Assembly: GCF_003574735.1 (NCBI RefSeq)
Contig: NZ_QORW01000004.1
Span: forward strand, 248,001 to 312,000
Reading direction: 5' to 3'
Length of the DNA stretch: 64,000 nucleotides
Source of the DNA: Dongia deserti
GTDB lineage: Bacteria > Pseudomonadota > Alphaproteobacteria > Dongiales > Dongiaceae
Position numbers and translations under genes: made by a program. This document shows, piece after piece, positions 11,020-55,610 of this stretch; position 1 is the stretch's first letter; each line of letters begins with the position of its first letter. Under the pieces are notes generated by a model. That model saw only the letters and a list, made by a program, of their open reading frames with translations. It was not told the origin of the DNA and did no database searches.

Positions 11020-12399
11020 ATGAGCACGATCAAGACCGAGCGGCGCAACCTCACGAAGTCCAACGCGCACTACAAGGAGGCTGTGAAGCATCTGCCGCTG
11101 GGGGTTTCGTCCAACTTCCGCTTTTGGGGCGAGAAGGAGACCGTGTTCGTGAAGCGCGGCAAGGGCGCGCGCCTCTGGGACCTGGATGGCAACGAATACA
11201 TCGACTACCGGCTGGGCTATGGCCCGGCGATCCTCGGCCACTGCAACGACGAGGTCGACGCCGCTGTGCGTGAGGCGCAGTCGACGGGCACGGTCTACGC
11301 CCTCGGCACCGAGAAGGAAGTGACCATCGCCAAGCTGATCAAGGAGATGATGCCGGCCGCCGACCTTGTGCGCTTCTCCAACTCCGGCACCGAAGCGGTG
11401 ATGGCTGCCCTGCGCTTGGCGCGCGGCTATACCGGCAAGGACAATTACGTCACCTTCGAAGGCTCCTATCACGGCCTGTTCGACGCCACCATGTGGACGG
11501 CGGACCCCGAGAGCATGAAGGACCAGAGCCGGGACCCGGTATTGATCTCCTACGGTCAGGGCATTCCGAAGCTGGTGCGCCAGCTGTTCTGGCAGGTGCC
11601 GTACAACGACGCCAACCGCCTCGAGGACGTGCTGAAGCAGCACCATGATTCGATCGCGGCGGTTCTGATCGAGCCGATCCTCGGCAATTGCTGCGGCATC
11701 CCCTCGAAGCCCGAGTTCATCCGCGCGGTGCGCGAGCTCTGCACCAAGTACAACGTTCTGATGGTTGTGGACGAGGTGAAGACCGGCTTCCGTGTCGGCA
11801 AAGGCGGCGCGCAGGCGCTCTACGGCATCGAGGCGGACATCTTCACCGTCGCCAAGGCGATGGCGAACGGCTACCCGATCGCGGCGATCGGCGGCAAGGA
11901 AGAGATCATGCGCAAGTACGGTAAGGGCGTCGCTCATGGCGGCACCTACACGGCGCAGGCCATGAGCCTCGCCGCCGCCGAGAAGACGCTGACCATCCTG
12001 CGCGATACCGATGCGTTCGAGCGCATCAATGCCTATGGCAAGGCGATGCAAGAGGGCATGCACAAGGTGCTGAGCCGCCGCGGCATCCCGCACAGCTTCA
12101 CCGGCCATTACTCGATGTCCGGCCTGTTCTTCAGCGCCCAGGCGCCGACCACCTATCGCAACTGGAAGCTCAGCGACTACACCTTCTACGACACGATGGC
12201 GGGCATCCTGATCGACATGGGCGTGATGTGCGAGCCTGACAGTCGCGAGCCCTGGTTCATCTCCGCCGCACACGACGAAGCATGCCTCACGGAGACGCTG
12301 AGCAAGTTCGAGCAGGCCGTCGACCTGACGTTGGATGAGCTCTCCGACGGCGGGGATCACGAGGGCGATAACAAGCTGATGCCGGGCATCAGCGGCTAA
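11020..12399 (+). CDS. Class III PLP-dependent aminotransferase (glutamate-1-semialdehyde aminomutase-like)
   Basis: This 459-residue fold-type I enzyme shows the class III hallmarks: substrate/PLP phosphate region NSGTEAVMAALRLAR (121-135), Asp of DEVKTGFR (251-258) contacting the pyridine nitrogen, and the Schiff-base Lys279 in VAKAMANGYP. It resembles hemL in layout, but its context next to an acyl-CoA regulon and BetI-like repressor argues for an omega- or beta-amino-acid aminotransferase in catabolism rather than haem synthesis. It is transcribed away from the regulator and ends in a strong terminator. Confidence 0.92.
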   Translation: MSTIKTERRNLTKSNAHYKEAVKHLPLGVSSNFRFWGEKETVFVKRGKGARLWDLDGNEYIDYRLGYGPAILGHCNDEVDAAVREAQSTGTVYALGTEKEVTIAKLIKEMMPAADLVRFSNSGTEAVMAALRLARGYTGKDNYVTFEGSYHGLFDATMWTADPESMKDQSRDPVLISYGQGIPKLVRQLFWQVPYNDANRLEDVLKQHHDSIAAVLIEPILGNCCGIPSKPEFIRAVRELCTKYNVLMVVDEVKTGFRVGKGGAQALYGIEADIFTVAKAMANGYPIAAIGGKEEIMRKYGKGVAHGGTYTAQAMSLAAAEKTLTILRDTDAFERINAYGKAMQEGMHKVLSRRGIPHSFTGHYSMSGLFFSAQAPTTYRNWKLSDYTFYDTMAGILIDMGVMCEPDSREPWFISAAHDEACLTETLSKFEQAVDLTLDELSDGGDHEGDNKLMPGISG

Positions 12400-13632: not shown

Positions 13633-14746
13633 TCAGGGTACTGGAGTAACCTGGCGGCCGATCGCCCATAGGAACGCCGCCATCTCGCGTGCGATAGCAG
13701 CGATGATGACGGGCTGCCTCTTGCCGGCAGCGCTGAGCCGGCGATACCGACCGCACAGCCTGACTTGCGCCTTCCATGCGATGTCGCGGACTGCCTTGGG
13801 AATCGCTTCGAGCCGCGCCCGTTGGGTGTTGCTGACGCGAGCGGGATGACGGTAGCTCCAAGCCGCTTCCACCAGCACCCGGCGGGTGCGCCGATTGCCG
13901 GCCAGAGTGAGACCGGTGCGCCGTACCGTATCGCCGGTCGAGCGCTCAGCAGGAACCAGACCGAGGAATGACATCAGCTGTCGTGGTGTGTCGAACCGGC
14001 GCACGTCACCGATCTCGGCAGCGAAGGTCACCGCGACCAGGAATGACACGCCGCGCATTGCCTGATAGGCAGCGACCACAGGTGCCATGGACCAACTCGG
14101 CACGATGGATGCGAGCTGGTCCTCGAGCCGGCGCAGTCGTTCGATGGCATCCTCGATGGCAGCGACCCCCGTCCTGGAAGACGATCTGCTGCGCCGGATG
14201 CTCGAAGCTCTGGTCGGCCAGCCAGCGTCGATGCGCGCGAGTCCAGTGATCTCCGCCCGTGAAGATCCGGCCATGGCGCAACAGGAAGGACAGCAGTTGC
14301 TGGCGCTTGCGTCGAAGGTCGTCCGCCGCAGCCAGGCGACCACGCACCAGATCGCGCACCGCCTCGTGGACGCTGTCGGGTACCCAGACCCCCGTCAGCT
14401 CGCCGGCCCGAAACAGGCGGGCCAATGTCATCGCATCCCGTCGGTTGGTCTTCACCCGGTCGCCTGACCGACGCGGGATCAGTGACGGAGCTACCACCAG
14501 GCACTCATGCCCCAACGCTCGGATCTGACGGTAAAGGCCAAAGCCCGTCGGGCCGGCTTCAAAACATACCTGCAGGTGGCTGTAGCGACCGGCCAGCTTC
14601 CTGATCAGCCGCTGGATCGTTGCCGGCTGGTTCGCGATCTCGCCGACAAAGCGGATCTCGCCCTGGCGCCCGCCTTCCGCAATTGCCACCGAATGCTTCA
14701 GCTTCGCCGTATCAAACGCGACGTACACCTCGCTATACTTCCCCAT
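13633..14746 (-). pseudogene. IS110-family transposase, broken by a frameshift
   Basis: The N-terminal part (14746 down to about 14170) has the RuvC-like DEDD-transposase layout: FDTAKLKHSVAIAEGG, CFEAGPTGFGLYR, and KTNRRDAMTLARL. The C-terminal Transposase_20 part (about 14165 down to 13633) is read in another frame, with RGVSFLVAVTFAAEIGD, the LMSFLGLVPAERSTGD block and GNRRTRRVLVEAAW. The frames meet at a run of five Cs at 14166-14170; dropping one base restores a single protein of about 370 residues. Either the copy is dead or this is a homopolymer sequencing error. No clear terminal repeats were found, as expected for IS110. Confidence 0.85.
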
Positions 14747-14846
14747 GGTCCGTCCTCCATGCCTGAGGCTCGGCTCGGTCCGTCCGAGCAACCCTCGATT
14801 ATCTTCGACATGAAAGGGCGGACCACCGGCTTCATACCGGGGTCAT

Positions 14847-40996: not shown

Positions 40997-41737
40997 TCAG
41001 CGCCGGGTGATCTTTGCCCACTTCCAGTGGAACAGCACATTGCCGTCCGCCTGCACGCCCGTGCCAACGATGCGGGTGCCATAGTTCCCTTTGAGCTTCT
41101 TGTATTCATCCTGAAGCACGGTGGGGTCGAACTCGTCATCGATATACTCGATGTCGCACCCGAGCCCGCGGACATAGTCGGCAAAGAACTCGACGTCGTA
41201 GGTGTTCTGGTACGCCCATTCGAGCGGGTTGCCGTCATCGTCGAACAGGTTGTCCCTACACCGCTTCGAGATGGTGGTCGGGTGCTCGCTCAGCAGCGTG
41301 CGGATGAAGCAGACCTTCCCGGTGCTGTCGAGCAGGTTCTTCACCGGCTTCTTGAAGAAAGGCAAATGAAGGATAACGTTGCAGCAATAGACGATGTCGT
41401 ACCGATCGCTCGGATAAAGCGGCTGGTGGATATCCTTGACCTCGAAGCTGGCATGCGGATCGTCCTTGAAGATCTGCCGCGCCTTGTTGATCACATGCTC
41501 ATAGGCATCGACACCGCGATACGTGACGTCAGCGCCGATGCGGCGGATGCCACGCAGGTAGTGTCCGACGTTGCATCCCACATCAAGAACGCGCATGCCG
41601 GGCTTGTAGACGTCGCCGATGAGCTTCACGAGCTGCTTGGTTGACTCCATCTCGCCCAGCTCACCAGTCGCCCTTCGCGGCAGGGTCACTTCTACATCGG
41701 GCTCCCGGCCCCAGACCTGCCACGGCTCAAAAGACAT
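40997..41737 (-). CDS. Class I SAM-dependent methyltransferase
   Basis: The product is 246 residues from ATG 41737, which follows GGGAGC. SAM-binding motif I is VLDVGCNVGHYLRGI and a further block is DIVYCCNVILHLPFF. No close specific family is recognised; the LHLPFFKKPVKNLL region resembles CmoB/UbiG-like enzymes. It sits with a surface-carbohydrate gene (next), so a sugar or lipid substrate is possible. Confidence 0.82.
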   Translation of the reverse strand: MSFEPWQVWGREPDVEVTLPRRATGELGEMESTKQLVKLIGDVYKPGMRVLDVGCNVGHYLRGIRRIGADVTYRGVDAYEHVINKARQIFKDDPHASFEVKDIHQPLYPSDRYDIVYCCNVILHLPFFKKPVKNLLDSTGKVCFIRTLLSEHPTTISKRCRDNLFDDDGNPLEWAYQNTYDVEFFADYVRGLGCDIEYIDDEFDPTVLQDEYKKLKGNYGTRIVGTGVQADGNVLFHWKWAKITRR

Positions 41738-41913
41738 GCGATGCTCCCTTGGTTCGGTTCGTGAGGGCCTCTCATAAACGGAGGGACGGCGCGTTACAAG
41801 CGCCCGGCGGCACCAAAGTCCATCGGCTGCAGCCACTGGCGGCATACTTCCGGGCCGGATGGCAATTCCAACAATTCCAATAGCTTGCCAGATCTTCCGA
41901 GATTGTAGGCCCG

Positions 41914-43305
41914 CTACCACCGTCCGACCGCGCGGCGGATGCGGGTAGTCAGCGGCAGGCCGCGCGGCGAGATCAGGGCCACCTTCGTGCCGCAGCCTTC
42001 GATGTTGAGCTGCGTATCGAGGCCCAATATTTCGCTGAACTGCTTCAGGCGCCGTTCGACAGCCACGAGGTCGAGCTCGGGGAACAGGGTGCCGCGGACA
42101 TTCTTGTCTGCCTGATGCCAACGGTAGCCGAGGGATGGATGCCATGCGCTCATCCCTTCACCGCTCGCGCTCCACCCGCCGCGCGCGGCCGCGAGCTCCT
42201 CCATGCCGGATATGATCTGCTCCGCACCCGTCCATTTGTCGTCGTAGGACAAGGTGTCCCGGTATCGATCGATCATCTCGCGTGTATAGCAGCGCGCCGG
42301 CTCCGACAGGAACGAGGCGACCGCCTCCAGGGCTTCGCGCGCCGTCTTAGCAACCGGGTTCACGAGGTTGGCCAGGTAGCGGCGATTGGCGGGGCTGTCC
42401 GTCGGCACGAGGCACACCGCCGGACGATCGAGTGCGACGGCTTCGGTGCCCGTCGAGCAGTTAGTGTGGACGAGGACCTGCGAGGCCATGATCCATGCGG
42501 TTGCCGAGCCCTCGCGAATGACAGACAGGTTCGGGATTCCGCGCGTCCATTCCTGCCACGCCTCCACATTCTCGCTCGGATGCGGGCGAACGACGATCTT
42601 GTAGTGCGGAAAGGCCTGGGCCAGAGCCGGCAGCAGCTCGAGCAGCGCCGCGCGATTGCCGCTCTCCATCCGCCCGAACTCCCTGAGCTCTGCCATGAAC
42701 GCGTGGTTGTTCGGATCGACCTTGCCCTGGTCGACCAGCGACTGGATGATCTCGTCGATGTTGCCTTTGTGGGAATTCGTGAAGCCGAGATTCGAGTTCA
42801 GCAGGATGAACTCGCCGTGCCGTCGCCGCAGTGCGTCAGCTTCTTCGGCGAAGATCGTGCGCAGCTCGCGCCGCAGAAGGTCCCAGCGAGGGTTCGCAGC
42901 CTTTTTGACCCGGCCGGCTTCGAGTCCGAACGCCTCCAGGAACGCCCGCGAGTTGAAGGTCCCGGGCAGGAAGATGACGTCGGTTGCATCGACCGCATCG
43001 CGCGAGACCCACCAGAAGTTCTTGTCGTGCACGACGAGGCCGGGGATCTCCTCATCGACTGCCGCCGTGATGTAGCCCGCCGCCCGCGCCCGCTTCAGCA
43101 TCTTGGCATCGCGCACGGTCAGCGTCTTGGAGAGGTAGATGCCCGGCGTCATGCGCTCTATGTTGCGCTCGATCAGCCACTTCTGGCCCAGCACCACCTC
43201 GAAGCCGCGCGCGGCCGCAATCGCAGTCAGCAGGAGGCGCGAATCCAGCTCCCGCGAGGCGATCTCCATCGGGCAATAGACTATCTTGGCCGGCTTCGGC
43301 GCCAT
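41914..43305 (-). CDS. Surface-carbohydrate biosynthesis protein (GT-B-like)
   Basis: This 463-residue protein begins with KIVYCPMEIASRELDSRLLLTAIAAARG, typical of the surface carbohydrate biosynthesis family, and contains KIVVRPHPSEN and VHTNCSTGTEAVALDRPAVCL, motifs of capsule/CMP-Kdo-like GT-B transferases (HP and TGTE nucleotide-sugar contacts). It probably acts on a surface glycan; donor and acceptor are unknown. Confidence 0.8.
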   Translation of the reverse strand: MAPKPAKIVYCPMEIASRELDSRLLLTAIAAARGFEVVLGQKWLIERNIERMTPGIYLSKTLTVRDAKMLKRARAAGYITAAVDEEIPGLVVHDKNFWWVSRDAVDATDVIFLPGTFNSRAFLEAFGLEAGRVKKAANPRWDLLRRELRTIFAEEADALRRRHGEFILLNSNLGFTNSHKGNIDEIIQSLVDQGKVDPNNHAFMAELREFGRMESGNRAALLELLPALAQAFPHYKIVVRPHPSENVEAWQEWTRGIPNLSVIREGSATAWIMASQVLVHTNCSTGTEAVALDRPAVCLVPTDSPANRRYLANLVNPVAKTAREALEAVASFLSEPARCYTREMIDRYRDTLSYDDKWTGAEQIISGMEELAAARGGWSASGEGMSAWHPSLGYRWHQADKNVRGTLFPELDLVAVERRLKQFSEILGLDTQLNIEGCGTKVALISPRGLPLTTRIRRAVGRW

Positions 43306-43496
43306 CCCCCGCTCGCAATCCAGTGAAGGGTCACGCTATTTAGCGGACCGTGTCCAACTGCGCAACGGCGGCCGGTGCGGCTCGTGCCGGCTTGGCCTTT
43401 GAAATGCCACGATAATTCGTCGCATCGGAAAGCTTGCAGCGGGCCTGCCCGGGGCCTTATGTCTTTGCCCGCAATCACCTTCGGAACACGAGTCGG

Positions 43497-45485
43497 ATGA
43501 ACGATCTTTTCAGCGGCGGCAAGCGGGGCGCGGACTACAGCGCCAAAGATATCGAGGTCCTGGAGGGGCTGGAGCCGGTACGGCGGCGCCCTGGCATGTA
43601 TATCGGCGGCACGGACGAGCATGCGCTTCATCACCTAGTCGCTGAGATCCTGGACAATTCCATGGACGAGGCCGTGGCCGGCCACGCCAGCCGCATCGAG
43701 GTCGAGCTAGGCGCCGACGGCTATATCATCGTGCGCGACAATGGCCGCGGCATTCCCATCGATCCCATGCCGAAATACGGCAACAAGCCCGCGGTCGAAG
43801 TCCTGCTCACCACGCTCCATTCCGGCGGCAAGTTCGGCGGCAAGGTCTACGAGACCTCCGGCGGCCTGCACGGCGTCGGCATGTCGGTGGTCAACGCGCT
43901 CAGCGACGATTTCACCGTCGAGATTGCGCGCGGCAAAGAGCTTTATGTTCAGGCCTATAGCAAGGGAAAGCCGAAGGGAAAGTTGAAGAATGCCGGCGGC
44001 GTCAACCGGCGCGGCACCAGCGTGCGCTTCCATCCCGATCCCGAGATCTTCGGCAAGCAGGCGCACTTCAGGCCGAACCGGCTCTATCGCATGTGCCGGT
44101 CCAAGGCCTACCTCTATCGCGGTGTCGAGATCCGCTGGTCGTGCGATCCTTCGCTAATCAGCGACAAGGATTCGACACCAGCCGAGGAGACCCTGCATTT
44201 TCCGGGCGGCCTGGGGGACTACCTGGCGTCCCGCCTCAATGGCAAGCAGACCGTCACCTCCACGCCGTTCGTCGGGCAGGCGGAATTTCCCGACAAGCAA
44301 GGCCGGGTCGAATGGGCGATTGCCTGGCCGGTCGCATCCGACGAAGAGGAGGGGCTGCGCAGCTTCTACTGCAACACGGTCCCTACCCCCGAAGGCGGCA
44401 CCCATGAGACGGGCCTTCGTGCAGGCCTCAGCCGGTCGCTGCGCGCCTATGGCGAGCTCATCGGCAACCGCAAGACGGGCCAGATCATCGCCGAAGATGT
44501 GATTGGCGGGGCAGTCGTGATCCTGTCGCTCTTCATCCGCGATCCGCAGTTCCAGGGCCAGACCAAGGAAAAGCTGGCGACGGCCGAAGCGGCGCGCCTG
44601 GTCGAAACCTCGATCAAGGACCATTTCGATCACTGGCTCTCCGCCGATCCCGCCCGCGGCAAGGACCTCCTGGAGTGGGTGATCGAGCGCGCGGAGGAGC
44701 GCCTGCGCAAGCGCCAGGACAAGGAGATCCTGCGCAAGACCGCCACCCGCAAGCTGCGCCTGCCGGGCAAGCTGATCGACTGCACCAAGACCGGGCCGGG
44801 CACTGAGATCTTCCTGGTCGAAGGCGATTCCGCCGGCGGCTCGGCCAAGACGGCGCGCAATCGCGAGACCCAGGCCGTGATGCCGCTGCGCGGAAAGATC
44901 CTCAACGTCGCCAGTGCATCCGCCGACAAGCTCTCCGGGAACCAGGAATTGATCGACCTCATTCAGGCGCTTGGCTGCAGCACGCGCGACAAGTATGACG
45001 AGGAGCGCCTGCGCTACGACAAGGTTATCATCATGACCGACGCCGATGTCGACGGCGCGCACATCGCCTCGCTCCTGATGACGTTCTTCTTCCGGGAGAT
45101 GCCGGACCTCATCCAGAACGGCCATCTATTCCTGGCGCAGCCGCCGCTCTATGCCCTCACCCAGGGTGCGAAGAAAGTCTATGCGCGCGATGATGCGCAC
45201 AAGGAGGAGCTGCTGAAGACCGAGTTCTCCGGACGCGGCAAGGTGGAGATCAGCCGCTTCAAGGGCCTCGGAGAAATGCCCGCCGCCGACCTCAAGAGCA
45301 CCACCATGGACCCCAAGCACCGCGTGCTGCTGCGCGTGCGCATGCCCCATCGTTACGTCGAAGAGGAACGGCAGGAGGCGCGCGAAACCTCCGACCTGGT
45401 CGAACGCCTGATGGGCCGCAAACCCGAGCTGCGTTTCCAATACATACAGGAGAACGCCCAGTTCGCCCGGGACCTGGACGTGTGA
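43497..45485 (+). CDS. parE: DNA topoisomerase IV subunit B
   Basis: This 662-residue GHKL ATPase subunit decatenates daughter chromosomes with ParC. It has EILDNSMDEA (N-box), DNGRGIPID, SGGLHGVGMSVVNALS, the TOPRIM motifs EGDSAGGSAK and MTDADVDGAHIA, and the C-terminal RFKGLGEMPA. The length and the RRRPGMYIGGTDE start favour parE over gyrB. ATG 43497 was chosen by family N-terminus. It overlaps the next gene by 4 bases. Confidence 0.95.
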   Translation: MNDLFSGGKRGADYSAKDIEVLEGLEPVRRRPGMYIGGTDEHALHHLVAEILDNSMDEAVAGHASRIEVELGADGYIIVRDNGRGIPIDPMPKYGNKPAVEVLLTTLHSGGKFGGKVYETSGGLHGVGMSVVNALSDDFTVEIARGKELYVQAYSKGKPKGKLKNAGGVNRRGTSVRFHPDPEIFGKQAHFRPNRLYRMCRSKAYLYRGVEIRWSCDPSLISDKDSTPAEETLHFPGGLGDYLASRLNGKQTVTSTPFVGQAEFPDKQGRVEWAIAWPVASDEEEGLRSFYCNTVPTPEGGTHETGLRAGLSRSLRAYGELIGNRKTGQIIAEDVIGGAVVILSLFIRDPQFQGQTKEKLATAEAARLVETSIKDHFDHWLSADPARGKDLLEWVIERAEERLRKRQDKEILRKTATRKLRLPGKLIDCTKTGPGTEIFLVEGDSAGGSAKTARNRETQAVMPLRGKILNVASASADKLSGNQELIDLIQALGCSTRDKYDEERLRYDKVIIMTDADVDGAHIASLLMTFFFREMPDLIQNGHLFLAQPPLYALTQGAKKVYARDDAHKEELLKTEFSGRGKVEISRFKGLGEMPAADLKSTTMDPKHRVLLRVRMPHRYVEEERQEARETSDLVERLMGRKPELRFQYIQENAQFARDLDV

Positions 45486-45868
45486 CCGAGAAAGAGTTCA
45501 ACGCCTTCTGTAAGTCGCTGCCTGCCACGACCTACGTGATGCAGTGGGGCGACCATCATGTGTGGAAGGTCGGCGGCAAGGTGTTCGCGATCGGCGGCTG
45601 GGATGCCAATGGCGGCCGCGTCACCTTCAAAGTCTCGCCGATCGCCTATGAGATGCTGAAGGACAAGCGCGGCTTGAGGCCGGCGCCGTATCTCGCCTCA
45701 CGCGGGATGAAATGGATCCAGCACTACGCGAAGCCGGGCCTGTCGGATAAGGACCTGAAAGGCTATCTGAAGGAGTCCCACCGTATCGTCGCGCTCGGCC
45801 TCTCCAGGAAGCGGCGCCAGGAACTGGGATTGGATGACAGCGAAGCTGTCTCTAGGCGAAGAGAATGA
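45482..45868 (+). CDS. MmcQ/YjbR family protein
   Basis: This 128-residue protein starts at GTG 45482, inside the parE stop (GTGA). It has the CyaY-like-fold YjbR pattern: TYVMQWGDHHVWKVGGKVFAIGG and KWIQHY. YjbR proteins are single-domain, often called DNA-binding, with no proven function. Coupling to parE is clear. Confidence 0.88.
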   Translation: MTEKEFNAFCKSLPATTYVMQWGDHHVWKVGGKVFAIGGWDANGGRVTFKVSPIAYEMLKDKRGLRPAPYLASRGMKWIQHYAKPGLSDKDLKGYLKESHRIVALGLSRKRRQELGLDDSEAVSRRRE

Positions 45869-45971
45869 GCGCGACGGTCACGGCGACAACGACGATCCAG
45901 GCGCTGCTGGCCGCATGGTCACGATAGCCGTTTTCGCTCAAGACGTCCTGGTAGGTTTCGGTCGTAAACAT
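45852..45971 (-). CDS. 39-residue single-helix membrane protein, unknown
   Basis: The ORF starts at ATG 45971 behind a strong GGAGGGG ribosome site and ends at TAG 45852. The product has a polar N-terminus with Tyr, Asp and His residues and one hydrophobic helix (about residues 24-39). It overlaps the end of the convergent YjbR gene by 17 bases. Confidence 0.55.
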   Translation of the reverse strand: MFTTETYQDVLSENGYRDHAASSAWIVVVAVTVALILFA

Positions 45972-46142
45972 TGTCCCCTCCAAACTCGTGGATCAGCACG
46001 TAGGGTATGCCTGCGTCCGCTTCAATAACTGCATGCGGACGTTAACGCCGCAAAATGGCGGATTCTGTGAATGCCGTCACACAGCGCAGCAGCACTGTGA
46101 TGGCCGTCACGCGTTCATAAGCGTTACGTTCCGGATGGAGGC

Positions 46143-46925
46143 TCAGATGCTCGGAAGAAAGGGCGTGATCTCGAGACTGCCGCGCTTTTCGATCACGAGC
46201 ATGTGACCGGCCGGCACTTCGCGCCAGGCTTGGCAATCCTCTTCCTCGTCCAGCGGCTCCGACACGACCATGAAATGATCGCTGCGCTGCCGGTGGAACA
46301 ACGTCGGCGGCACCTCGTCGCTGGAATGCCGCACCGCATAGACGAATTCGCCGTCGCTCAACACCGAGGTGAACTTGAACGGCTCGTTCACCGCCGCGTC
46401 GCGTGCCAGCCGTTCGATGCTGCCGATGGTGCGCGTCAGCGCGCCGATTGGATCCTCCTGCAACCCGTCGCTCAGCAGCAGGTAGAAGATGAGCTCGCTG
46501 TCCGTCGTACCAACGCGATGGCAATAGAAGCGGTCATCGATCATCGCTTCCAGCCGGCGGCGCACGCGTTCATAGCCGCCGATCTGGCCGTTATGCATGA
46601 ACAGCCATTTGCCGTGAGCGAACGGGTGGCAGTTGGCGCGCGAGGTCGCCGTCCCGGTCGAGGCGCGCACATGCGCCAGGAACAGACTGGAGCGGATCTG
46701 GTGCGCCAGGCTCTTGAGGTTCTGGTCGTTCCAGGCCGGCAGGATATCGCGATAGACACCCGGGGTCGGGCGTTCGCCGTACCAGCCGATCCCGAAGCCG
46801 TCGCCGTTGGTGGTGACGTGGCTGTGCCGGGCGCGGAGGCTCTGGCTGATCAGGGAATTGCGCGGCTCGAACAGGACCTTGTCGAGGTAGATCGGGTCGC
46901 CGCAATAGGTCAGCCACCGGCACAT
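46143..46925 (-). CDS. Class II glutamine amidotransferase
   Basis: This 260-residue Ntn-type amidotransferase has the catalytic Cys2 (MCRWLTYCGDP), GDGFGIGWY, and the glutamine-binding FLAHVRASTG and HNGQIGG motifs. It resembles YafJ/EgtC. Without an egtBD neighbourhood the role cannot be fixed to ergothioneine; it may act on gamma-glutamyl compounds. Confidence 0.92.
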   Translation of the reverse strand: MCRWLTYCGDPIYLDKVLFEPRNSLISQSLRARHSHVTTNGDGFGIGWYGERPTPGVYRDILPAWNDQNLKSLAHQIRSSLFLAHVRASTGTATSRANCHPFAHGKWLFMHNGQIGGYERVRRRLEAMIDDRFYCHRVGTTDSELIFYLLLSDGLQEDPIGALTRTIGSIERLARDAAVNEPFKFTSVLSDGEFVYAVRHSSDEVPPTLFHRQRSDHFMVVSEPLDEEEDCQAWREVPAGHMLVIEKRGSLEITPFLPSI

Positions 46926-47052
46926 GTGATCGTTCCTTCAGGCGCCGCCCCAAAAAAGGGTGGCGTAGGCAGTGCCATTTGACCCTACAAGCATTAACGA
47001 AGGGGAAAAGTGATTTGGGCCACAAGATGCCCTGGCACATGGCTTGCGTTGC

Positions 47053-47604
47053 ATGATGGTTATGAGCAAACGCCCTGCATTTCTTGCCGCCCCTCTGTTC
47101 GCCGCCCTGGCGGCGCTGGGCGCTGGCGCCTGCACCCCTACGGTCAAGGTGGCTGAGCCGGACATCGTGATGAAATCGCCGGTAGCCCCGCGGGCATTGA
47201 CCTCCTGCCTTGCGGTCAAGCTGGGGGAGAATTTCCGCGACCGGAGGCCGACGGTCGACATCTACCGCGGCGTTCACGAGATCACCATCGACTCGCCCCG
47301 CGGGGAAAAGCTTGCGTTTGTGACGGTCGAGCCGGACTTCGCCGGCGGCTCTGTAACGCGGTTCTGGAACGGCGATCTCTACTGGCCGGACCACACAGTC
47401 AGTGGCGTGTGGCCGGATGTGATGCGGGACAATTGGCACCGGTTCGAGGCGGCGCAGAATGCCTGCCAGCCTGCGCCGGTCGCGGCCAAGCCAGTTGCCA
47501 AGGCCCCGCCCGCGGCACCTTCGAAAGCCGCGCCGGTTAATTCCACGATCAAGGCCCGGCCCCTGAAGCCCCTCACCGGCGCCCCGCGCAAGCTCACCCC
47601 CTAA
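47053..47604 (+). CDS. Putative lipoprotein, unknown
   Basis: The ~183-residue product has a hydrophobic N-terminus ending in a lipobox-like GAGAC, a conserved-looking middle region (FRDRRPTVDIYRGVHEI), two Trp-rich strands, and an Ala/Pro/Lys-rich tail. Start codons at 47053, 47056 and 47062 are all possible. No family recognised. Confidence 0.6.
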   Translation: MMVMSKRPAFLAAPLFAALAALGAGACTPTVKVAEPDIVMKSPVAPRALTSCLAVKLGENFRDRRPTVDIYRGVHEITIDSPRGEKLAFVTVEPDFAGGSVTRFWNGDLYWPDHTVSGVWPDVMRDNWHRFEAAQNACQPAPVAAKPVAKAPPAAPSKAAPVNSTIKARPLKPLTGAPRKLTP

Positions 47605-47740
47605 GACAGCGGAATTTCTGGCTTTTCCTGCCCGCCGGTGCGTTCTGAAGGGCGCCATTGCGGGTTTTGCGCTTGCATTTTGGGCGGGATTTTGGGAAGC
47701 CCTTGCCGGCCCCGGCGGACATGCCTCCGGCGGCCAGAGT

Positions 47741-47816
47741 GGGCCCGTAGCTCAGTCGGTAGAGCAAGCGACTTTTAATCGAGAGGTCGCGGGTTCGAGT
47801 CCCGCCGGGCCCACCA
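47741..47816 (+). tRNA. tRNA-Lys (anticodon UUU)
   Basis: The 76-base gene folds as a cloverleaf: acceptor GGGCCCG/CGGGCCC, D-arm GCTC/GAGC, anticodon loop CTTTTAA (anticodon TTT), T-arm GCGGG/CCCGC with TTCGAGT loop, and encoded CCA. The anticodon stem AGCGA/TCGAG has only three Watson-Crick pairs; the outer two positions are A-G and G-A mismatches. Confidence 0.93.
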
Positions 47817-48084
47817 AACACCGCCGATTACGGCGCAAATTGATAGTCCATCTCTTTTGATTATCAATAAAGGTAGGCGCCTGGAGTGCTATTGTGCTGC
47901 GAGACGTAGTTCTCACGCGCTCAACCGGGCAGATAGTCCGTCCGCTACAACCGCCGATCACACGTTGAGGACCGCTCCCCTCACCGAGGAACAAGCAGGG
48001 TGTGACTGGCCTAGGCCGAAACTGGACTGCTCGGTTTCAGGCGAAATCCAAGGATAAGTTGGCCTCGGCTCGGCGACCTTTGCG

Positions 48085-48555
48085 TCATTTCAAGCGCTCA
48101 GCAAAGGCTGCGAGTTGGTCAATCGTCGTGCCCCATCCCTCGTGGAATCCCAGCTCCTCATGCTTGCGGCTATCGGCGGGGCTTTTGTGCAGCACCCGGG
48201 CCGAATACCGCGTGCCCTTTCCCTCCTGCTCAAATGTGATGATCGCGGTCAGCGCCAACCAGGGCTCGATCGGTTGCCAGCCCTCAGCCAGGGTCGTGGT
48301 CCAGACCATCCGCCGCGCAGGCGTGATGTCGAGGAAGCAGGCTTTGATATGCGGCTTGAATTCGCCGCCGCCTTCACTCATCAACGTCTCGAAGCCGCCG
48401 CCCGGCCGCAGGTCCAGCTTGACGACCTTGCATTCGATGGGAGCGGGTATCCACCATTTCGCAAGATGCTCCGGCTCGCTCCACGCTTTCCAGACCGTGA
48501 CGGGCGAAGCGTTGATGATCCGCGAGATATTCAACTCGGTATTTTCAGTCCTCAT
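48085..48555 (-). CDS. SRPBCC (AHSA1-like) domain protein
   Basis: The 156-residue product from ATG 48555 has the AHSA1 pattern (ISRIINASPVTVWKAWSEPEHLAKWWI; HEELGFHEGWGTTIDQL). The start lies inside the 3' end of the upstream ArsR gene (11-base overlap), so the two are translationally coupled. The ligand is unknown. Confidence 0.9.
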   Translation of the reverse strand: MRTENTELNISRIINASPVTVWKAWSEPEHLAKWWIPAPIECKVVKLDLRPGGGFETLMSEGGGEFKPHIKACFLDITPARRMVWTTTLAEGWQPIEPWLALTAIITFEQEGKGTRYSARVLHKSPADSRKHEELGFHEGWGTTIDQLAAFAERLK

Positions 48556-48892
48556 CTTCGTTCCCTGACATTTGGGTTTCGACATAATTGGCCAGGCGGT
48601 CGGTTCTGGCCTGCCAAAGCGCGCGCTGCTCGGAAAGCCAGGTCTCGGCCTCCGCCAAGCGCTCGATCCTCACCCGGCAGGTGCGGACACGGCCGGCCTT
48701 CTCGGTAGCGATCAATCCGCTGTCCTCAAGCACCCGAAGATGTTTCAGGAAGCCAGGCAGCCCCATGCTGAAAGGCTCGGCCAGTTCCTTGACCGGCGCG
48801 GGGCTTGTCATCAGACGGTTGATGATCGCTCTCCGGGTCGGGTCGGAAAGCGCGTGGAAAGCGGCATCAAGTGGTGTTCGATAGGTTTCCAT
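48545..48892 (-). CDS. ArsR family repressor
   Basis: The 115-residue winged-helix protein from ATG 48892 has FHALSDPTRRAIINRLMTSPAPVKELAEPF and FLKHLRVLEDSGLI. It lacks cysteine metal sites. It is the first gene of an ArsR-SRPBCC pair, divergent from a second ArsR gene at 49061. Confidence 0.92.
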   Translation of the reverse strand: METYRTPLDAAFHALSDPTRRAIINRLMTSPAPVKELAEPFSMGLPGFLKHLRVLEDSGLIATEKAGRVRTCRVRIERLAEAETWLSEQRALWQARTDRLANYVETQMSGNEDED

Positions 48893-48894
48893 AT

Positions 48895-48919
48895 GGTGAA
48901 CTATATACAATTGTTCACC
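48895..48919. promoter_or_regulatory. Putative operator: inverted repeat GGTGAAC-N11-GTTCACC
   Basis: This inverted repeat begins 2 bases upstream of the ArsR start at 48892, in the divergent promoter region. It is AT-rich between the arms (contains TATATACAATT) and is the natural candidate for autorepression. Confidence 0.6.
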
Positions 48920-49060
48920 GTATGGCAAACTAATGTCTGTGCTTGCACCCGATCTTCCGGCCCGTCCCCTGCAAAGAAGCCGACTGCTTCGTGGCCCCGA
49001 TGCCAATGTGGGAACACTTAGCAAATTGACGAAGTTTCTCTTGCGCGGCAGACGCCTCGG

Positions 49061-49417
49061 ATGATAGTTAGCTTTATGACTAAGCATCATCCGGAACTTT
49101 CGCTGCTCTTCCATGCCCTGGCCGATCCGACCCGTCGATCGATCCTGACCCGACTCGCTGAAACGCCCGCGCGGGTCTCGGATCTGTCGGCACCCACGGG
49201 GCTGCGCCTGCCCACGGTGATGCGGCACCTTTCAGTGCTTGAGGAGGCAGGGCTGATCGCCACGTCCAAGGATGGGCGGGTGCGCACCTGCGTCATCGTG
49301 CCGGAGGCATTGGAACCGGTCCGGACATGGCTCGATGAGCAGCGGGCAATATGGGAAGGCCGGCTCAGCCGGTTGGACGCATTTGCGATGAAAACTATGA
49401 AGGAACGCGCCGAATGA
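49061..49417 (+). CDS. ArsR family repressor
   Basis: This 118-residue winged-helix protein (ATG 49076 is an alternative start) has FHALADPTRRSILTRLAETPARVSDL and LPTVMRHLSVLEEAGLI. It is coupled to the tandem-SRPBCC gene through an ATGA overlap and divergent from the ArsR at 48545-48892. Confidence 0.92.
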   Translation: MIVSFMTKHHPELSLLFHALADPTRRSILTRLAETPARVSDLSAPTGLRLPTVMRHLSVLEEAGLIATSKDGRVRTCVIVPEALEPVRTWLDEQRAIWEGRLSRLDAFAMKTMKERAE

Positions 49418-50337
49418 TATCGAAACTGAACCCCGAGCGCATGCCTGCGGCGCCCGATCATGCGGAAGGCCGCTTTGCGACGCTGACCTTCGAGCGGGAC
49501 GTGGCCGCGCCATTGTCGGTGCTGTGGCAGACCTGGACGGCGCCAGCCGCGCGAGCGGTCTGGGCCGCGCCCACGCCCTCTGTCACCGTGGAGTTTTTGG
49601 AAGCCGACATCAGGGTGGGTGGACGCGAGGTCTCGCTCTGCAAGATTGAGGGCCAGCCGGATACCCGCTGTGAATGTGGCTGGCTTGAGTTGCAGCCGGC
49701 AGAGCGCAGCGTGAACTACGAGGTGGTCTCCTCCGGTGGTGTGACGCAATCGGCGGCGCTGGTGACGGCTGATTTCTCAGGCACAGACGAGCGCAGCCGA
49801 TTGGTCGTAACGGTGCAGCTTTCCTCGCTGGCCGAGGATATGGAGGCTAGCTACCGGCAGGGCTTCGATGCGGGACTGCGCAATCTCGCAGGAGCGGCCG
49901 AGCGAACCATGGTGCTGCAGCGAATGATACAGGCACCACGAACCATCGTCTGGAACACGTGGATGAACCCCGAGACGCTGCCACAATGGTGGGGGCCGGA
50001 TGGGTTTTCCTGCCGGACGAAGAGGATCGACCTGCGAACGGGCGGCGAATGGGTGTTCGACATGATCGCGCCCGATGGCGCGGTCTTCCCGAACCATCAC
50101 CTCTATACCGAGGTCCGACCCGAGGAGAGGATCAGCTATACGCTGCTATGGGGCGAGAACGGACCAAAACATGCCGACGCCTGGGCGTCGTTCGAGGATC
50201 AGGACGGGGCGACGAAGGTGACGCTGGGCATGGTGCTCAGTACAGAGGCCGCGTTTCAGGAGGCGAAAGGATTTGGCGCAGTCGAACTGGGCTTGCAAAC
50301 GCTGGGCAAACTGGAACGCTTCGTCAAATCCCGATAG
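49414..50337 (+). CDS. Tandem SRPBCC (two AHSA1-like domains in one protein)
   Basis: This 307-residue protein has two AHSA1 domains: domain 1 about 20-150 (RDVAAPLSVLWQTWTAPAA...) and domain 2 about 165-305 (RMIQAPRTIVWNTWMNPETLPQWWG...; TGGEWVFDMIAPDG). Domain 1 has lost several of the usual aromatic residues (WTAPAARAVWAAP in place of P-E-L-x-x-W-W). A fusion by gene duplication is likely. It overlaps the ArsR stop by 4 bases. Confidence 0.88.
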   Translation: MISKLNPERMPAAPDHAEGRFATLTFERDVAAPLSVLWQTWTAPAARAVWAAPTPSVTVEFLEADIRVGGREVSLCKIEGQPDTRCECGWLELQPAERSVNYEVVSSGGVTQSAALVTADFSGTDERSRLVVTVQLSSLAEDMEASYRQGFDAGLRNLAGAAERTMVLQRMIQAPRTIVWNTWMNPETLPQWWGPDGFSCRTKRIDLRTGGEWVFDMIAPDGAVFPNHHLYTEVRPEERISYTLLWGENGPKHADAWASFEDQDGATKVTLGMVLSTEAAFQEAKGFGAVELGLQTLGKLERFVKSR

Positions 50338-50376
50338 GATGCTGCGGCTTAGCAACCGACGCATTTTTTTGCGTTT

Positions 50377-50859
50377 TCAGAGCGTCCGGGCAAGCGCTTC
50401 GAGTTTGCCGGCCGTCTGTCCCCAGCCTTCATGGAAGCCCATCTCCTCATGCTGTTTCCGCGCCTCCTCGGTCCAGTGCAGGGCGCGCACGACATAGCGA
50501 GTCTTGCTGTCTTTGTCGGACATCTCAATGATCGTGGTCATGAAGGGGACGACCGTGGGTTTGCTGGATGGGATCCACCCCGAGGTAAAGGCGTTGGTGA
50601 ACACCAACCGCTGCTCCGGAACCGCCTCCAAGAACACGCCGTCGCCATCGGATTCCTCGCCGTCCGGGCCGCGCATGACGATGTGAGACGCGCCGCCGGT
50701 GCGCGGTTCCAGAGTCTTCACCTCGGTTCTCCAGGACTGGGGCGCGAACCATTGCTCCAGCAGGTTGGGCTCCGTCCAGCACCGCCAAACACTCGCGCGC
50801 GGCGCGTCCAGCAGACGCTCCAGCCGCAGCTCGTATCTTGCAGTCCTTTCGTTGGCCAT
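50377..50859 (-). CDS. SRPBCC (AHSA1-like) domain protein
   Basis: The 160-residue product has ERLLDAPRASVWRCWTEPNLLEQWF and HEEMGFHEGWGQTAGKLEAL, close in pattern to the 48085 protein. There is no ArsR gene directly coupled to it. It is convergent with the tandem-SRPBCC gene. Confidence 0.9.
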   Translation of the reverse strand: MANERTARYELRLERLLDAPRASVWRCWTEPNLLEQWFAPQSWRTEVKTLEPRTGGASHIVMRGPDGEESDGDGVFLEAVPEQRLVFTNAFTSGWIPSSKPTVVPFMTTIIEMSDKDSKTRYVVRALHWTEEARKQHEEMGFHEGWGQTAGKLEALARTL

Positions 50860-51261
50860 CAGTTTTCCTCTTCTCTTCCTCCAGCTAGGTTACTGCTGTT
50901 GCGGCGTCATCCCACTTGCGCTTCGAGCCATGGGCGTCGCGGGGCAAGGTTCCAGCACCGACAACCGTGCTACGCGTCAAAGAATTCCCTCTCCGCACTC
51001 TCTGCAGGAAGGGATTTTTCATTTTCAGGGGTCAGGGCGTGTTCGTTGCCGTCGCTTCCGCCACGGCCCGTGCGCGCAGCGCGCGGCGGATGATCCTGCC
51101 CGTCGTCGTCATCGGCAACTCGCTCACGAATTCGATCTCGCGCGGACACTTGTGCACAACGAGACACCTTCTCGCGTGAATATCGATCGTTTCTTGTTTT
51201 TCGAGCGCCCTTCCCTCATCATCGCTCCTCCGAATGCAATGCCTGATTTCCGGGTCACGTG
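50860..51261. other. Gene-free stretch with a decayed AMP-ligase 3' end
   Basis: No intact gene. From about 51030 to 51200 the minus strand encodes a fragment homologous to the C-terminus of the AMP-dependent ligase at 53991-55610 (PREIEFVSELPMTTTG followed by RIIRRALRAR). Here it continues with a further short tail to a stop at 51032, whereas the intact gene stops right after RALRAR. The rest of the stretch has no visible features. Confidence 0.65.
51075..51146 (-). repeat. Direct repeat A: duplicated 3' end of the AMP-ligase gene
   Basis: These 72 bases equal 54001-54072 except for one base, and both lie in the same orientation, 2,926 bases apart. The single mismatch changes the catalytic-Lys codon of the ligase C-domain (TGK) to Arg in this copy. 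Weaker similarity continues for another ~50 bases. Confidence 0.85.
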
Positions 51262-52344
51262 ATGGATGGTGCACCTCCAAAAATCTCTGTCGTGATGACG
51301 GTCTTCAACGACTTGCGCTTTTTGGACGACGCGATCGAAAGCATAATCAGCCAAGACTTTCCCGATTTCGAGCTGATCGTGGTCGATGACGGAACCGGAC
51401 AGCAAGCATTGTTCGACGCTATCGCTCGACGTGATCCACGCATCAGCGTTCTGGCGAACCCAATCAACATTGGCACGGCCGCCGCCGCGAATCGAGGGAT
51501 CGAGTCCGCTCGTTCTGACATCATCGTCCGGCTTGATGCCGATGACCTTGCAGAGCCCAATCGAATTTCGCGCCTGTTCTCCATGCTATCGGACGATCCC
51601 GAGCTTGGCCTTCTCGGCAGTTGGTGCACGCTTATCGATGAGACAGACTCCGTAATAGGAGTTCAGCCGATGCCGGAGAGTGATCTTGAGATCCGATGGA
51701 CCATTCTCTTCCATAATCCATTTTACCACTCGACCGTAGCTTTCCGCCGCCACTGTTTCGAGTCTGCCGGACACTATCGGCCCGGAGAGCTTGTTTCCCA
51801 AGATCACTATTTGTGGTTCGACATGCTTCCACATTGCCGCGCGCGGAACGTCCCCGAGCCGCTCGTGCGTTACCGGGTCAACAGCCGCGGGCTCACTACG
51901 ACTGATTCGAGGCGCGGGAGGTCGCGCACCCATCGCATCCGCGAAGTGCTCTGGTCTCGAATAGGCCTCGTATATGACCTGTACGACGACAAACTTGCGG
52001 CAAGTATCAGCGAGTTCCTTCGTGGTCGCACCATTCCCGCTCCGCGCCGAACAGCCGCTTACCACAAGCTGCTGCTCGTACTTCGTGCATTCCTTGCCTC
52101 GGTCGCGCCTACTGCGAGAGCGGACGACCGCTTCGCTGCCGCTAGGTTGAAGCGCAATCTGATTCGCCGCATCCTGAGTGAACCACCTCCATTGTCCTAT
52201 CGCGCTCTATCGATTTGCCTGCTGTGCTGCGCCCTGGGCCCATATGCTGCTTGCAGAGCTGCAGTCGAGCGCATGAAGCTTGCGGCAGTGCCCCTGGTCC
52301 TGGGAATACGCAAGCGCACGCAGGGTGGTGCTGGACGTGGATGA
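51262..52344 (+). CDS. Glycosyltransferase family 2
   Basis: The 360-residue product from ATG 51262 is an inverting GT-A glycosyltransferase: ISVVMTVFNDLRFLDDAIES, LIVVDDGTG, and the DxD-type RLDADDLAEP motif for nucleotide-sugar and metal binding; SQDHYLWFDML supplies the catalytic-Asp region. The C-terminal 100 residues contain a hydrophobic segment. Base composition is lower in GC than neighbours (28/60 in 51301-51360). It is the first of three genes in a bracketed cassette. Confidence 0.88.
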   Translation: MDGAPPKISVVMTVFNDLRFLDDAIESIISQDFPDFELIVVDDGTGQQALFDAIARRDPRISVLANPINIGTAAAANRGIESARSDIIVRLDADDLAEPNRISRLFSMLSDDPELGLLGSWCTLIDETDSVIGVQPMPESDLEIRWTILFHNPFYHSTVAFRRHCFESAGHYRPGELVSQDHYLWFDMLPHCRARNVPEPLVRYRVNSRGLTTTDSRRGRSRTHRIREVLWSRIGLVYDLYDDKLAASISEFLRGRTIPAPRRTAAYHKLLLVLRAFLASVAPTARADDRFAAARLKRNLIRRILSEPPPLSYRALSICLLCCALGPYAACRAAVERMKLAAVPLVLGIRKRTQGGAGRG

Positions 52345-52351
52345 GGTGAAT

Positions 52352-52981
52352 ATGGATCGAGCTAAGGAGAATATGACGAGCGAGGACTACTCGGCCTGGT
52401 TTCGCGGCAAGGATCTGACGACGGACTGGACATCGCGTTATTATCCCATCTGGGCTTCGCTCCTTGGGTCGCGCCGCAACGAGCCGCTGACGGTCCTCGA
52501 AATCGGCTCGTGGGAAGGCCGTTCAGCGATCTTCTTTCTTCGGTATCTGCCGAACTGCCGGCTTACGTGTATCGATACTTTTGCCGGAAGTGCCGAGCAT
52601 CTCACGGTCGAGAAGTGGCGTGTTGCCGTTCCACACATCGAAGCGCGTTTCGATGCGAACGTGGCGGAGTTCGGCGACCGCGTGGTCAAGCTGAAGTCGA
52701 GATCCATGCAAGCCTTGGCCCGCTTGCTCTTGCAAGGAGCCCAGTTCGACCTTGTCTATATCGACGGCAGTCACCGGAGCGCCGATGTACAGTCCGACGC
52801 GACGTTGTCGTGGCCGATGGTCAAAAATCATGGAATTGTTGTCTTCGACGACTACGATTGGTCCCTGATGGGGACGGAAATGGATCGCCCCAAGCTAGGC
52901 GTCGATACGTTCCTTCGGGTCCGCGCCGGGGAGTATCGGGAGCTGCATCGCGGCTACCAGCTCATCGTCGAGAAGATCTGA
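52352..52981 (+). CDS. Class I SAM methyltransferase (Methyltransf_24-type)
   Basis: The 209-residue product from ATG 52352 (after GAGGTG) has SAM motif I VLEIGSWEGRSAIFFL, an acidic ICIDTF-like motif II (CIDTFAGS) and FDLVYIDGSHRSADVQSD, followed by GIVVFDDYDW. This is the pattern of CmcI/Methyltransf_24 enzymes that O-methylate sugars or related small molecules. It lies 7 bases after the glycosyltransferase stop. Confidence 0.85.
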   Translation: MDRAKENMTSEDYSAWFRGKDLTTDWTSRYYPIWASLLGSRRNEPLTVLEIGSWEGRSAIFFLRYLPNCRLTCIDTFAGSAEHLTVEKWRVAVPHIEARFDANVAEFGDRVVKLKSRSMQALARLLLQGAQFDLVYIDGSHRSADVQSDATLSWPMVKNHGIVVFDDYDWSLMGTEMDRPKLGVDTFLRVRAGEYRELHRGYQLIVEKI

Positions 52982-52991
52982 GGCGTCGCAT

Positions 52992-53975
52992 ATGACCGAG
53001 AAGCTCGCCGACCGAGAGCCACCGAATGACGTCGAGTTCGTGGCGATCGCCGAGACAGGAATCCTCGAAGCGCAGGCGCTCCTGTTGTGCGAAAGCATAC
53101 GTCGCTTCGCCGGCGGCTATGCGCGCCCTCGCATAACGGTGGTATCGCCCAGGCCAAGCCGCCGCCCGTTGGCCGCGACCATCTGCGCTTTGGAGCGGCT
53201 GAATGTCGATTACCACGAAATCGAGGTCGATAGCTGCTGTCCGCTGTACGGCACGAGCTATCGCGTCCACTCTGCCGCGTGGATTGAGCGCAGGTCCGGG
53301 CCAGATGTAATTGCGCAACTCGACAGCGACACGCTCTTTTTTGAGCAGCCGGACTTCTCACTCGGCGATTGGGAGGCTGCAGCCAGACCGGTTGATGTGA
53401 AAGGCATGTGCACCACCGGGCCGAGCGACCCGTTCGATCGCTATTGGCAGGAGATTTGCCGCATCGCAGAGGTCGACTACTCGGATCTTCCCTTCGTGGT
53501 GACGAGCATCGATGGATGCCGAGTCCGGGCAAGCTATAATGGCGGCCTCCTGGTGGCGCGCCGCTCTCACGGCCTCTTCACACGCACGGAGGAGATCCTC
53601 GGGAGGATGGTCGCTGCGGGCCTGCGGCCATGGGGAAGCGAGGGGCCCAAAGTTGCCGCCGGAACCGGTGTCTTGAGCGGCTCAGCCACATCGTATTGGG
53701 GCACCAGCCAAGCAGCATTCTCATTGGCTTGCGTGGCCAGCCGAATACCTGTCCGACTGCTGCCGGACGGCTACAACTTTCCCCTCCATCTTGCCGATCG
53801 AACCGCTTTGCCGCGCCCCCTTGTCCATGTCCACTACCACGGGCTGTTCGAAGGTCAAGACGCCCGGAGCAATCGGTTGTTCGATGGCTCCGCAGCCATT
53901 CCACCAGATGCCGCAGCGTGGCTCGAGGCGCGCCTGCCCCTGGCAGCCACCCAGAAGACGCAGCAGTCCGGTTGA
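52992..53975 (+). CDS. Putative GT-A glycosyltransferase, family not recognised
   Basis: This 327-residue protein has a Rossmann-like N-terminus (VEFVAIAETGILEAQALLLCESIRRF) and a DxD-like AQLDSDTLFF motif, then YNGGLLVARR, resembling nucleotide-diphospho-sugar transferases of the GT8/GT77-like type. It is 10 bases after the methyltransferase gene, completing a three-gene operon that probably decorates a glycan. Confidence 0.68.
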   Translation: MTEKLADREPPNDVEFVAIAETGILEAQALLLCESIRRFAGGYARPRITVVSPRPSRRPLAATICALERLNVDYHEIEVDSCCPLYGTSYRVHSAAWIERRSGPDVIAQLDSDTLFFEQPDFSLGDWEAAARPVDVKGMCTTGPSDPFDRYWQEICRIAEVDYSDLPFVVTSIDGCRVRASYNGGLLVARRSHGLFTRTEEILGRMVAAGLRPWGSEGPKVAAGTGVLSGSATSYWGTSQAAFSLACVASRIPVRLLPDGYNFPLHLADRTALPRPLVHVHYHGLFEGQDARSNRLFDGSAAIPPDAAAWLEARLPLAATQKTQQSG

Positions 53976-53990
53976 TGATCCGCAGCCCGT

Positions 53991-55610
53991 TCAGCGCGCA
54001 CGCAGCGCGCGGCGGATGATCTTGCCCGTCGTCGTCATCGGCAACTCGCTCACGAATTCGATCTCGCGCGGATATTCGTGCGCGGCGAGGCGCTTCTTCA
54101 CATAGGCCTGGATGTCGCGCGCCAATTCGTCGCTCGGCGTGTGCCCCTCCTGCAGGACGACGTAAGCCTTGATGATTTCCGTGCGTTCCTCGTCTGGCTT
54201 CCCGACCACGCCGGCAAGGCGCACCGCCGGATGTCCCAGCAGACAGTCCTCGATCTCACCCGGCCCGATCCGATAGCCAGCCGACGTGATGACATCGTCG
54301 TCGCGGCCGACGAACTTGATCCACCCCTCTCCATCCATTGTGCCGGTGTCGCCGGTCAGCAGCCATTCGCCGGCGAACTTGGCCGCCGTCGCCTCGGGGT
54401 TGCGCCAGTATTCCAGGAACATCACCGGATCGGGCTGTCGAACCGCGATGTTGCCGAGCGTTCCTTCCGACACGACAGCACCGGCTGCATCCACGATCCC
54501 GAGGTGATGTCCTGGCACGGCGCGTCCCATGATGCCCGGCCGCGCCGGCATCAGCCGCGCGCAGGAGGAGACGATCATGTTGCATTCGGTCTGGCCGTAG
54601 AACTCGTTGATGGTGAGGCCGAAGACGCGCCTGCCCCACTCAATCAACTCGGCACCGAGAGTCTCGCCGCCGCTGGCGATCGAGCGCATGGCGAGGCGCC
54701 AGCGCTCCTCCGGCTCCGGGACGCCGCGCATGATCTTGAGCGCGGTCGGCGGCAGAAAGGCATTCCGGATACCGAAATCCTGGATGAGCTGAAACGCCGC
54801 CTCGCCGGTGAACTTCTCGAACCGTCGCGCCACGACGGGAACGCCGTGATGGAGCGCCGGCATCAAAACGTCGAGCAGGCCGCCGATCCAGGCCCAATCA
54901 GCCGGCGTCCAGATCTTGTCACCCGGCTGCGGCAGCAGGTCGTGACTCATCTCGACTCCTGGCAGATGGCCCAAGAGCACGCGATGGGCGTGCAGCGTGC
55001 CCTTCGGTTGGCCGGTCGTTCCCGAGGTGTAGATGATGAGGGCCGGGTCGTTCGCTGCCGTATCGACCGGCGTGAAATCCGCCACCTGAGTCTCCAGCGC
55101 TGCCGAGAGTTCCCAGCAACCCGGCGCAGCGCCATCAACGCAGAGCACGTGCTCCAAATGGGGCAAGCTGGCTCGGATCTCGGCCAGCTTCGCCGCGCCG
55201 CCGCGGTTCGTGATGACGGCCTTGGCGCCGGAATTGGCAAGCCGGTATTGCAGCGCCTCCGGCCCGAACAAGGCGAACAAGGGGACGGCGATCGCGCCAA
55301 GCTTGTAGATTGCGATGTGACCGACCGCCGTCTCAGGCGCTTGCGGCAGCAGGACGGCAACGCGGTCACCGCGGCCGACCCCTAGCTTCCGAAGCAGGTT
55401 GGCAAGCCGGTTCGACCAGGTGCGCAGCTCGCCATATGAATAGTCACGCGTCGCATCGTCCGGTCCGACAAAGGTCAGGGCGATCCGCTCCGGCTCCCGG
55501 ACGGCCCAGCGATCGCAGACATCAACGCCGATGTTATAGCGGGCGGGCACCTGCCAGCGGAAATCGCGGACAAGCGCGGAATAGCTGTCGGCTTCGGGCA
55601 ACATGGGCAA
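53991..55610 (-). CDS. AMP-dependent acyl-CoA synthetase/ligase
   Basis: This 539-residue ANL-superfamily enzyme activates a carboxylic acid as acyl-AMP then acyl-CoA. It has the P-loop-like YTSGTTGQPKG (194-204), NEFYGQTECN, LTGDTGTMD and the C-terminal TGKIIRR with the catalytic Lys. It stops directly after RALRAR, earlier than the related fragment at 51.0 kb, at the point where the glycosyl/methyl-transfer cassette begins. A few C-terminal residues may therefore have been lost. Confidence 0.92.
   Translation of the reverse strand: MPMLPEADSYSALVRDFRWQVPARYNIGVDVCDRWAVREPERIALTFVGPDDATRDYSYGELRTWSNRLANLLRKLGVGRGDRVAVLLPQAPETAVGHIAIYKLGAIAVPLFALFGPEALQYRLANSGAKAVITNRGGAAKLAEIRASLPHLEHVLCVDGAAPGCWELSAALETQVADFTPVDTAANDPALIIYTSGTTGQPKGTLHAHRVLLGHLPGVEMSHDLLPQPGDKIWTPADWAWIGGLLDVLMPALHHGVPVVARRFEKFTGEAAFQLIQDFGIRNAFLPPTALKIMRGVPEPEERWRLAMRSIASGGETLGAELIEWGRRVFGLTINEFYGQTECNMIVSSCARLMPARPGIMGRAVPGHHLGIVDAAGAVVSEGTLGNIAVRQPDPVMFLEYWRNPEATAAKFAGEWLLTGDTGTMDGEGWIKFVGRDDDVITSAGYRIGPGEIEDCLLGHPAVRLAGVVGKPDEERTEIIKAYVVLQEGHTPSDELARDIQAYVKKRLAAHEYPREIEFVSELPMTTTGKIIRRALRAR
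54001..54072 (-). repeat. Direct repeat B: 3' end of the intact AMP-ligase gene
   Basis: This is the partner of 51075-51146, one mismatch in 72 bases. It is the last part of the intact ligase coding sequence. The two repeats enclose the three-gene glycosyl/methyl-transfer cassette. Confidence 0.85.

Follow-up and report, generated by a model that had tools for sequence, protein, structure and literature searches.

How could three putative surface-glycan genes enter the end of a metabolic gene and leave that gene unbroken? The question is raised by a 64,000-nucleotide stretch of the Dongia deserti genome (contig NZ_QORW01000004.1, positions 248,001 to 312,000), here called the window. A family 2 glycosyltransferase gene (51262-52344, start at 51259 or 51262; Pfam Glycos_transf_2, E 5e-25), a methyltransferase gene (52352-52981; Pfam Methyltransf_24) and a gene for a probable glycosyltransferase with a DSD motif (52992-53975) follow one another on its plus strand (51262-53975), separated by gaps of 7 and 10 bases. 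They lie between two copies of a ligase 3' end, at 51075-51146 and 54001-54072, which have the same orientation, agree in 71 of 72 bases and are spaced by 2926 bases. This arrangement had been described by a sequence-only reading of the same DNA, and we confirm both its coordinates and the near identity of the repeats. The three-gene cassette between duplicated ligase ends is real.

Copy 1 of the core repeat (54001-54072, minus strand) lies within the 3' end of an intact gene for an AMP-binding acyl-CoA ligase (53991-55610, minus strand), recognized by the Pfam domains AMP-binding and AMP-binding_C and by its orthologues. The frame encodes 539 amino acids and closes with an in-frame stop after a short tail (RRALRAR), such that the gene owes its complete 3' end to one of the repeats; 15 bases separate this stop codon from the last stop codon of the cassette. 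Copy 2 (51075-51146, minus strand), assigned by its match to copy 1, is a fragment of the ligase 3' end. In the ligase frame it reads PREIEFVSELPMTTTGRIIRRALRARAVAEATATNTP before its stop and has a tail longer than that of the intact ligase; past RRALRAR the frame continues AVAEATATNTP, with the stop at 51032-51034. Both statements made before, that the intact ligase stops at the cassette edge and that the far fragment is the longer-tailed one, are thus borne out. This putatively displaced tail occupies 51032-51074 on the minus strand, and its start resembles the ligase tails of two relatives discussed below (G002 and G086). The ungapped match between the two ligase ends stretches to 95 bp at 91% identity and, with transition-only differences, covers 51069-51181. 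Homology of the fragment past about 51182 was rejected, as 78, 44 and 131 of 500 shuffles scored as high in three tests. A query of 261 bp spanning the fragment found two places only in the window's own genome (G000) at E <= 0.001, with 40 of 93 candidates scored. A second full ligase in G000 was rejected on the strength of a single match at E <= 1e-150, and the earlier proposal that two ligase paralogues recombined is not supported as far as two full paralogues go. Whether the same repeat brackets further cassettes had been put forward as a check; in the genus genomes searched, no other element carrying the core repeat was found.

The composition of the cassette sets it apart in part. The GC content is 28/60 at 51301-51360, and third-position GC amounts to 0.62, 0.72 and 0.72 in the three genes as compared with 0.74-0.87 in 18 other measured genes of the window, one of which (40997-41800) was entered with a guessed start. 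Lower GC, as claimed before, therefore holds for that sample and for third positions, but not for the total GC of the third gene (0.630), which equals the window mean (0.631). Pfam places both glycosyltransferase and methyltransferase domains in the cassette. The third protein has zero Pfam or NCBIfam matches at E <= 0.001 and no significant relative among PDB sequences (best E 0.09), and its predicted structure is of low confidence (pLDDT 46). At E <= 1e-30 its gene occurs in one of 385 genomes, a sample of the class and not the whole of it, and that one is the window's own; at E <= 1e-5, one of 72,556 plasmid records has it. The plasmid, from Rhodobacter, carries the relative (38.5% identity) in a polysaccharide cluster, beside a glycosyltransferase. 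Other relatives occur in Mesorhizobium (about 60%) and in a Burkholderiales genome (about 40%), where the protein is joined to a region that we read by eye as family 2-like glycosyltransferase. The DSD and SYNGGL motifs are invariant across three aligned proteins, namely the third protein and its relatives in loci L011 and L012, and suggest a nucleotide-sugar transferase. The product of 52992-53975 belongs to a small protein family with these motifs, found in glycan contexts. Hence the third gene is a probable glycosyltransferase, and, judging from protein families, the cassette probably adds sugars to a surface glycan and methylates them.

What did the site look like before the cassette? G002, of the same genus, has at locus L014 a single uninterrupted ligase and no cassette; its long tail RARAAAEAAQRGG resembles the fragment tail RARAVAEATATNTP, and 3 bases lie between the stop codons of the ligase and of the adjoining gene, which is CigR-like, its match to CigR lying below the cut-off. 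An empty site of this kind, with one uninterrupted long-tailed ligase, had been named as a check in the sequence-only reading, and on gene order and tail G002 is that site, with the caution that its genome is 68% complete and not that of a sister strain and that its ligase is 78% identical to the window's (86% for G001, 69% for G086); the empty-site junction lies inside a contig. In G003 the ligase found no match at E <= 1e-150, and that genome is hence silent on this point. The ligase of G086 ends in RERARAEASAEREGHRRS, whereas the short ends are RAR in the intact gene of the window and RARQP in G001. For the comparison of tails, 19 of 29 ligase loci fitted the C-terminal motif used and 10 were dropped; because tails differ widely among the 19, the argument is confined to G002 and G086. 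Given that these two have long tails and the window and G001 short ones, the older tail is most likely the one preserved in the fragment, that of the intact gene being a replacement. A long-tailed ligase without a cassette in G002 likewise suggests that the cassette lies within the ligase end, where it provides another stop and has shifted the old tail away.

It comes close to an even chance that the cassette entered by one reciprocal, Campbell-type exchange between the chromosome and a circle bearing a matching 72-bp ligase end. A surface-glycan cassette of about 2.85 kb would thereby have been inserted among the final coding bases of the ligase gene; the host ligase would have adopted the incoming end, with its new stop after RALRAR, and the original long-tailed end would have come to lie beyond the cassette, along with the diverged upstream flank of the circle. 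We infer both the circular intermediate and the agent of exchange. The agent may have been a site-specific recombinase that has since been lost or that acts in trans, in which case the cassette would be a CIME-like remnant, or else RecA, working on the ligase end common to both molecules, from which the same product would be expected. The parts in hand are the direct repeat, the in-frame completion of the ligase, the long tail found in the fragment only, the empty site in G002 and the lower third-position GC. The order that such an exchange predicts is the order seen: intact ligase with foreign tail, cargo, circle flank, core and host tail. In accordance, the fragment is a hybrid, with a host-like core, an older-looking tail and a diverged flank on the other side. 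The exchange is also favoured by a shared core younger than the split of G000 and G001, by the rarity of the third gene in the genomes and plasmid records searched, and by the precedent in PMC5704250 for direct repeats and for gene 3' ends as sites. Several findings count against this exchange. The three cassette proteins contain no recombinase domain in Pfam, as had been noted before, and none of the seven matches to tyrosine integrase (PF00589) in the genome lies on the 371-kb contig C33. Repeats of tyrosine recombinases are generally 8-60 bp long according to the part of PMC5704250 available to us, and the 72-bp repeat exceeds this. Nor does the exchange predict a transition-only flank. Against it stand also the methyltransferase that G001 has beside a single ligase end and the lack of a second element with this repeat in the genus genomes searched, and the completeness and distance of G002 weigh on the empty site itself.

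The flank deserves attention of its own. Over 51069-51181 (113 bp, ungapped) the fragment and the intact copy disagree at 20 positions, in each case by a transition (intact to fragment on the plus strand, G>A 7, T>C 5, C>T 4, A>G 4). Seventeen of the 20 crowd into the 35 bp beside the core (51147-51181, minus strand), a degenerate ligase flank in which 18 bases are identical and no transversion occurs. Because only 18 of the 35 bases are identical, the case for a homologous flank depends on a purine/pyrimidine match of 35/35, in an ungapped register that was picked by eye and whose gapped alternatives start near 51165. As a control, the window was compared with homologous stretches (13 loci given, the fragment's own row left out), and the 8364 mismatches comprise 41.5% transitions and 58% transversions, with a longest transition-only run of 12; the all-transition pattern had been spotted before this comparison. 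For the ligase gene alone, transitions make up 34-45% of the differences from four orthologues. The motif LAAHEYPR is kept at the flank position in all 19 motif-matched ligase loci, the window's included, of 29 examined; as it is conserved in ligases, the fragment is the copy that changed. The transition-only half-site is a concrete oddity open to testing.

How old is the insertion? The methyltransferase of G001 shares 66% protein identity with the window's and is convergent with the ligase that it adjoins. The gap in G001 runs from the ligase through this gene and a second methyltransferase (Methyltransf_11) to the CigR-like gene; the second methyltransferase lies at 11521-12201 of locus L013. 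There is no second ligase end in G001, where the ligase-end part of the query matches only the ligase itself. Among 17 genomes of the family, only G000 and G001 have the cassette-type methyltransferase at E <= 1e-30, so that either the site was occupied before they split or related cassettes entered twice. With the methyltransferase in place in G001 and the ligase end single there, the ligase-end duplication may be younger than part of the cassette. The claim that the cassette entered at the ligase 3' end and left a duplication is accordingly strengthened by the empty site of G002 and weakened by G001; a relative with the same gene order and no second ligase end, named beforehand as a contrary outcome, is seen in G001 for the methyltransferase only. 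The window's two core copies differ at 1 of 72 bases as compared with 6 of 72 between the ligases of G000 and G001, and therefore the identity that the core now shows dates from after the split. By these counts, it is the result of recent exchange or of recent gene conversion. The second of these underlies a reading that we regard as unlikely, though deserving of serious weight, in which the site was founded before the split, G001 lost the displaced ligase end, and G000 kept it, its 72-bp core being copied repeatedly or recently from the intact gene as the flank decayed. The convergent methyltransferase homologues in just these two genomes, the short ligase tail of both and a core that is homogenized next to a flank that is not all agree with such a history. 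However, ordinary decay would add transversions, as the controls show, and homologous post-stop junctions in G000 and G001 were rejected, with 129 of 500 shuffles scoring as well.

A small chance goes to homology-facilitated illegitimate recombination, in which a linear donor carrying the cassette and a short-tailed ligase would pair by homology at the ligase and join illegitimately on its other side, so that the recipient's ligase end stays behind. The process is documented in the portion of PMC3240628 at hand, would produce the same order and makes a recombinase unnecessary; yet an abrupt junction would be expected, and the 35-bp flank is instead purine/pyrimidine-identical. Slim is the chance that the ligase 3' end serves as an exchange site for recombinase-free glycan cassettes, its far half-site remodelled by transitions only and its core spared, and that this remodelling (17 transitions in 35 bp) reflects local hypermutation coupled to recombination. 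The literature matches listed on clustered mutagenesis, as far as their texts were available, deal mainly with deaminases or other DNA damage, and none of the matches listed describes recombination-coupled transition-only hypermutation in those texts. Very slim is the chance of a transposon or a local rearrangement in which the ligase end has no special role: the gap from the CigR-like gene to the ligase is indeed variable, being empty in G002, filled by a pair of methyltransferase genes in G001 and as long as 14 kb in the window, but the new stop sits at the ligase end, and a DDE transposon was rejected, with no transposase domain in the three cassette proteins and no inverted repeat pair of at least 18 bases with arms at both cassette ends.

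The same gap appears to have received other DNA. A block at 41910-47831 comprises a surface polysaccharide gene, parE, YjbR, GATase, a lipoprotein gene and tRNA-Lys; the labels tRNA-Lys, YjbR, GATase and TIGR04396 come from searches, and parE, NeuB, the lipoprotein and pilus genes are what we take them to be by eye from their translations. In G001 and G003 the block lies elsewhere, flanked on one side by a NeuB-like gene from a sugar-biosynthesis cluster and on the other by a conserved block. In G000 that conserved block and a NeuB-like gene, there in opposite orientation, are about 0.3 kb apart, and the pair lies about 225 kb from the block. Thus, the block most likely moved within G000 into the ligase gap, with its direction with respect to the conserved block unchanged. 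Because it lies outside both ligase ends, its move would be an event separate from the cassette. Tandem duplication and loss as the origin of the moved block was rejected by reasoning, as the fragment would then be expected at the opposite side of the block. Between tRNA-Lys and the ligase fragment, 48085-50859 holds three AHSA1-domain genes and two ArsR-like regulators recognized by eye, and the matches of relatives to these genes sit elsewhere. Further away, two overlapping minus-strand frames (13633-14791) look to us by eye like a frameshifted IS110-type transposase.

As this locus shows, a bacterium can accommodate extra surface-glycan genes where a conserved gene ends, leaving that gene unbroken, at a site that also takes other cargo. 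If it is true that small recombinase-free cassettes reuse gene ends, variation in glycans could be passed on with no need of classical mobile elements. Is the principle new, as the sequence-only reading had thought possible? In the part of PMC5704250 available to us, integration that keeps the gene intact is already described at the 3' ends of guaA, yicC, trmE and others, where one repeat carries the gene end, and a CIME is an element that retains attL and attR and has lost its integration and transfer genes. Like the CIMEs and IMEs at gene 3' ends of that account, our cassette has direct repeats resembling attL and attR, an element-supplied end that keeps the target gene intact, a displaced original end and an empty site in a relative, G002. 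Unlike them, it consists of three cargo genes with no integrase or mobility gene among them, its core measures 72 bp, and no further copy of the repeat was found. A ligase end as an integration target appeared in no paper found in our literature search. When a circle bearing a gene end integrates by homology (Campbell integration), a tandem partial duplication and an intact hybrid gene result. The locus has both; it departs from this scheme in the flank beside the core, which has diverged, and therefore close homology is limited to about 72 bp. Clusters of surface-glycan genes carry family 2 glycosyltransferase and methyltransferase genes, and the cassette is like them in gene content, with a relative of its third gene in the polysaccharide cluster of the Rhodobacter plasmid; unlike them, it is an isolated three-gene unit placed at a metabolic gene.
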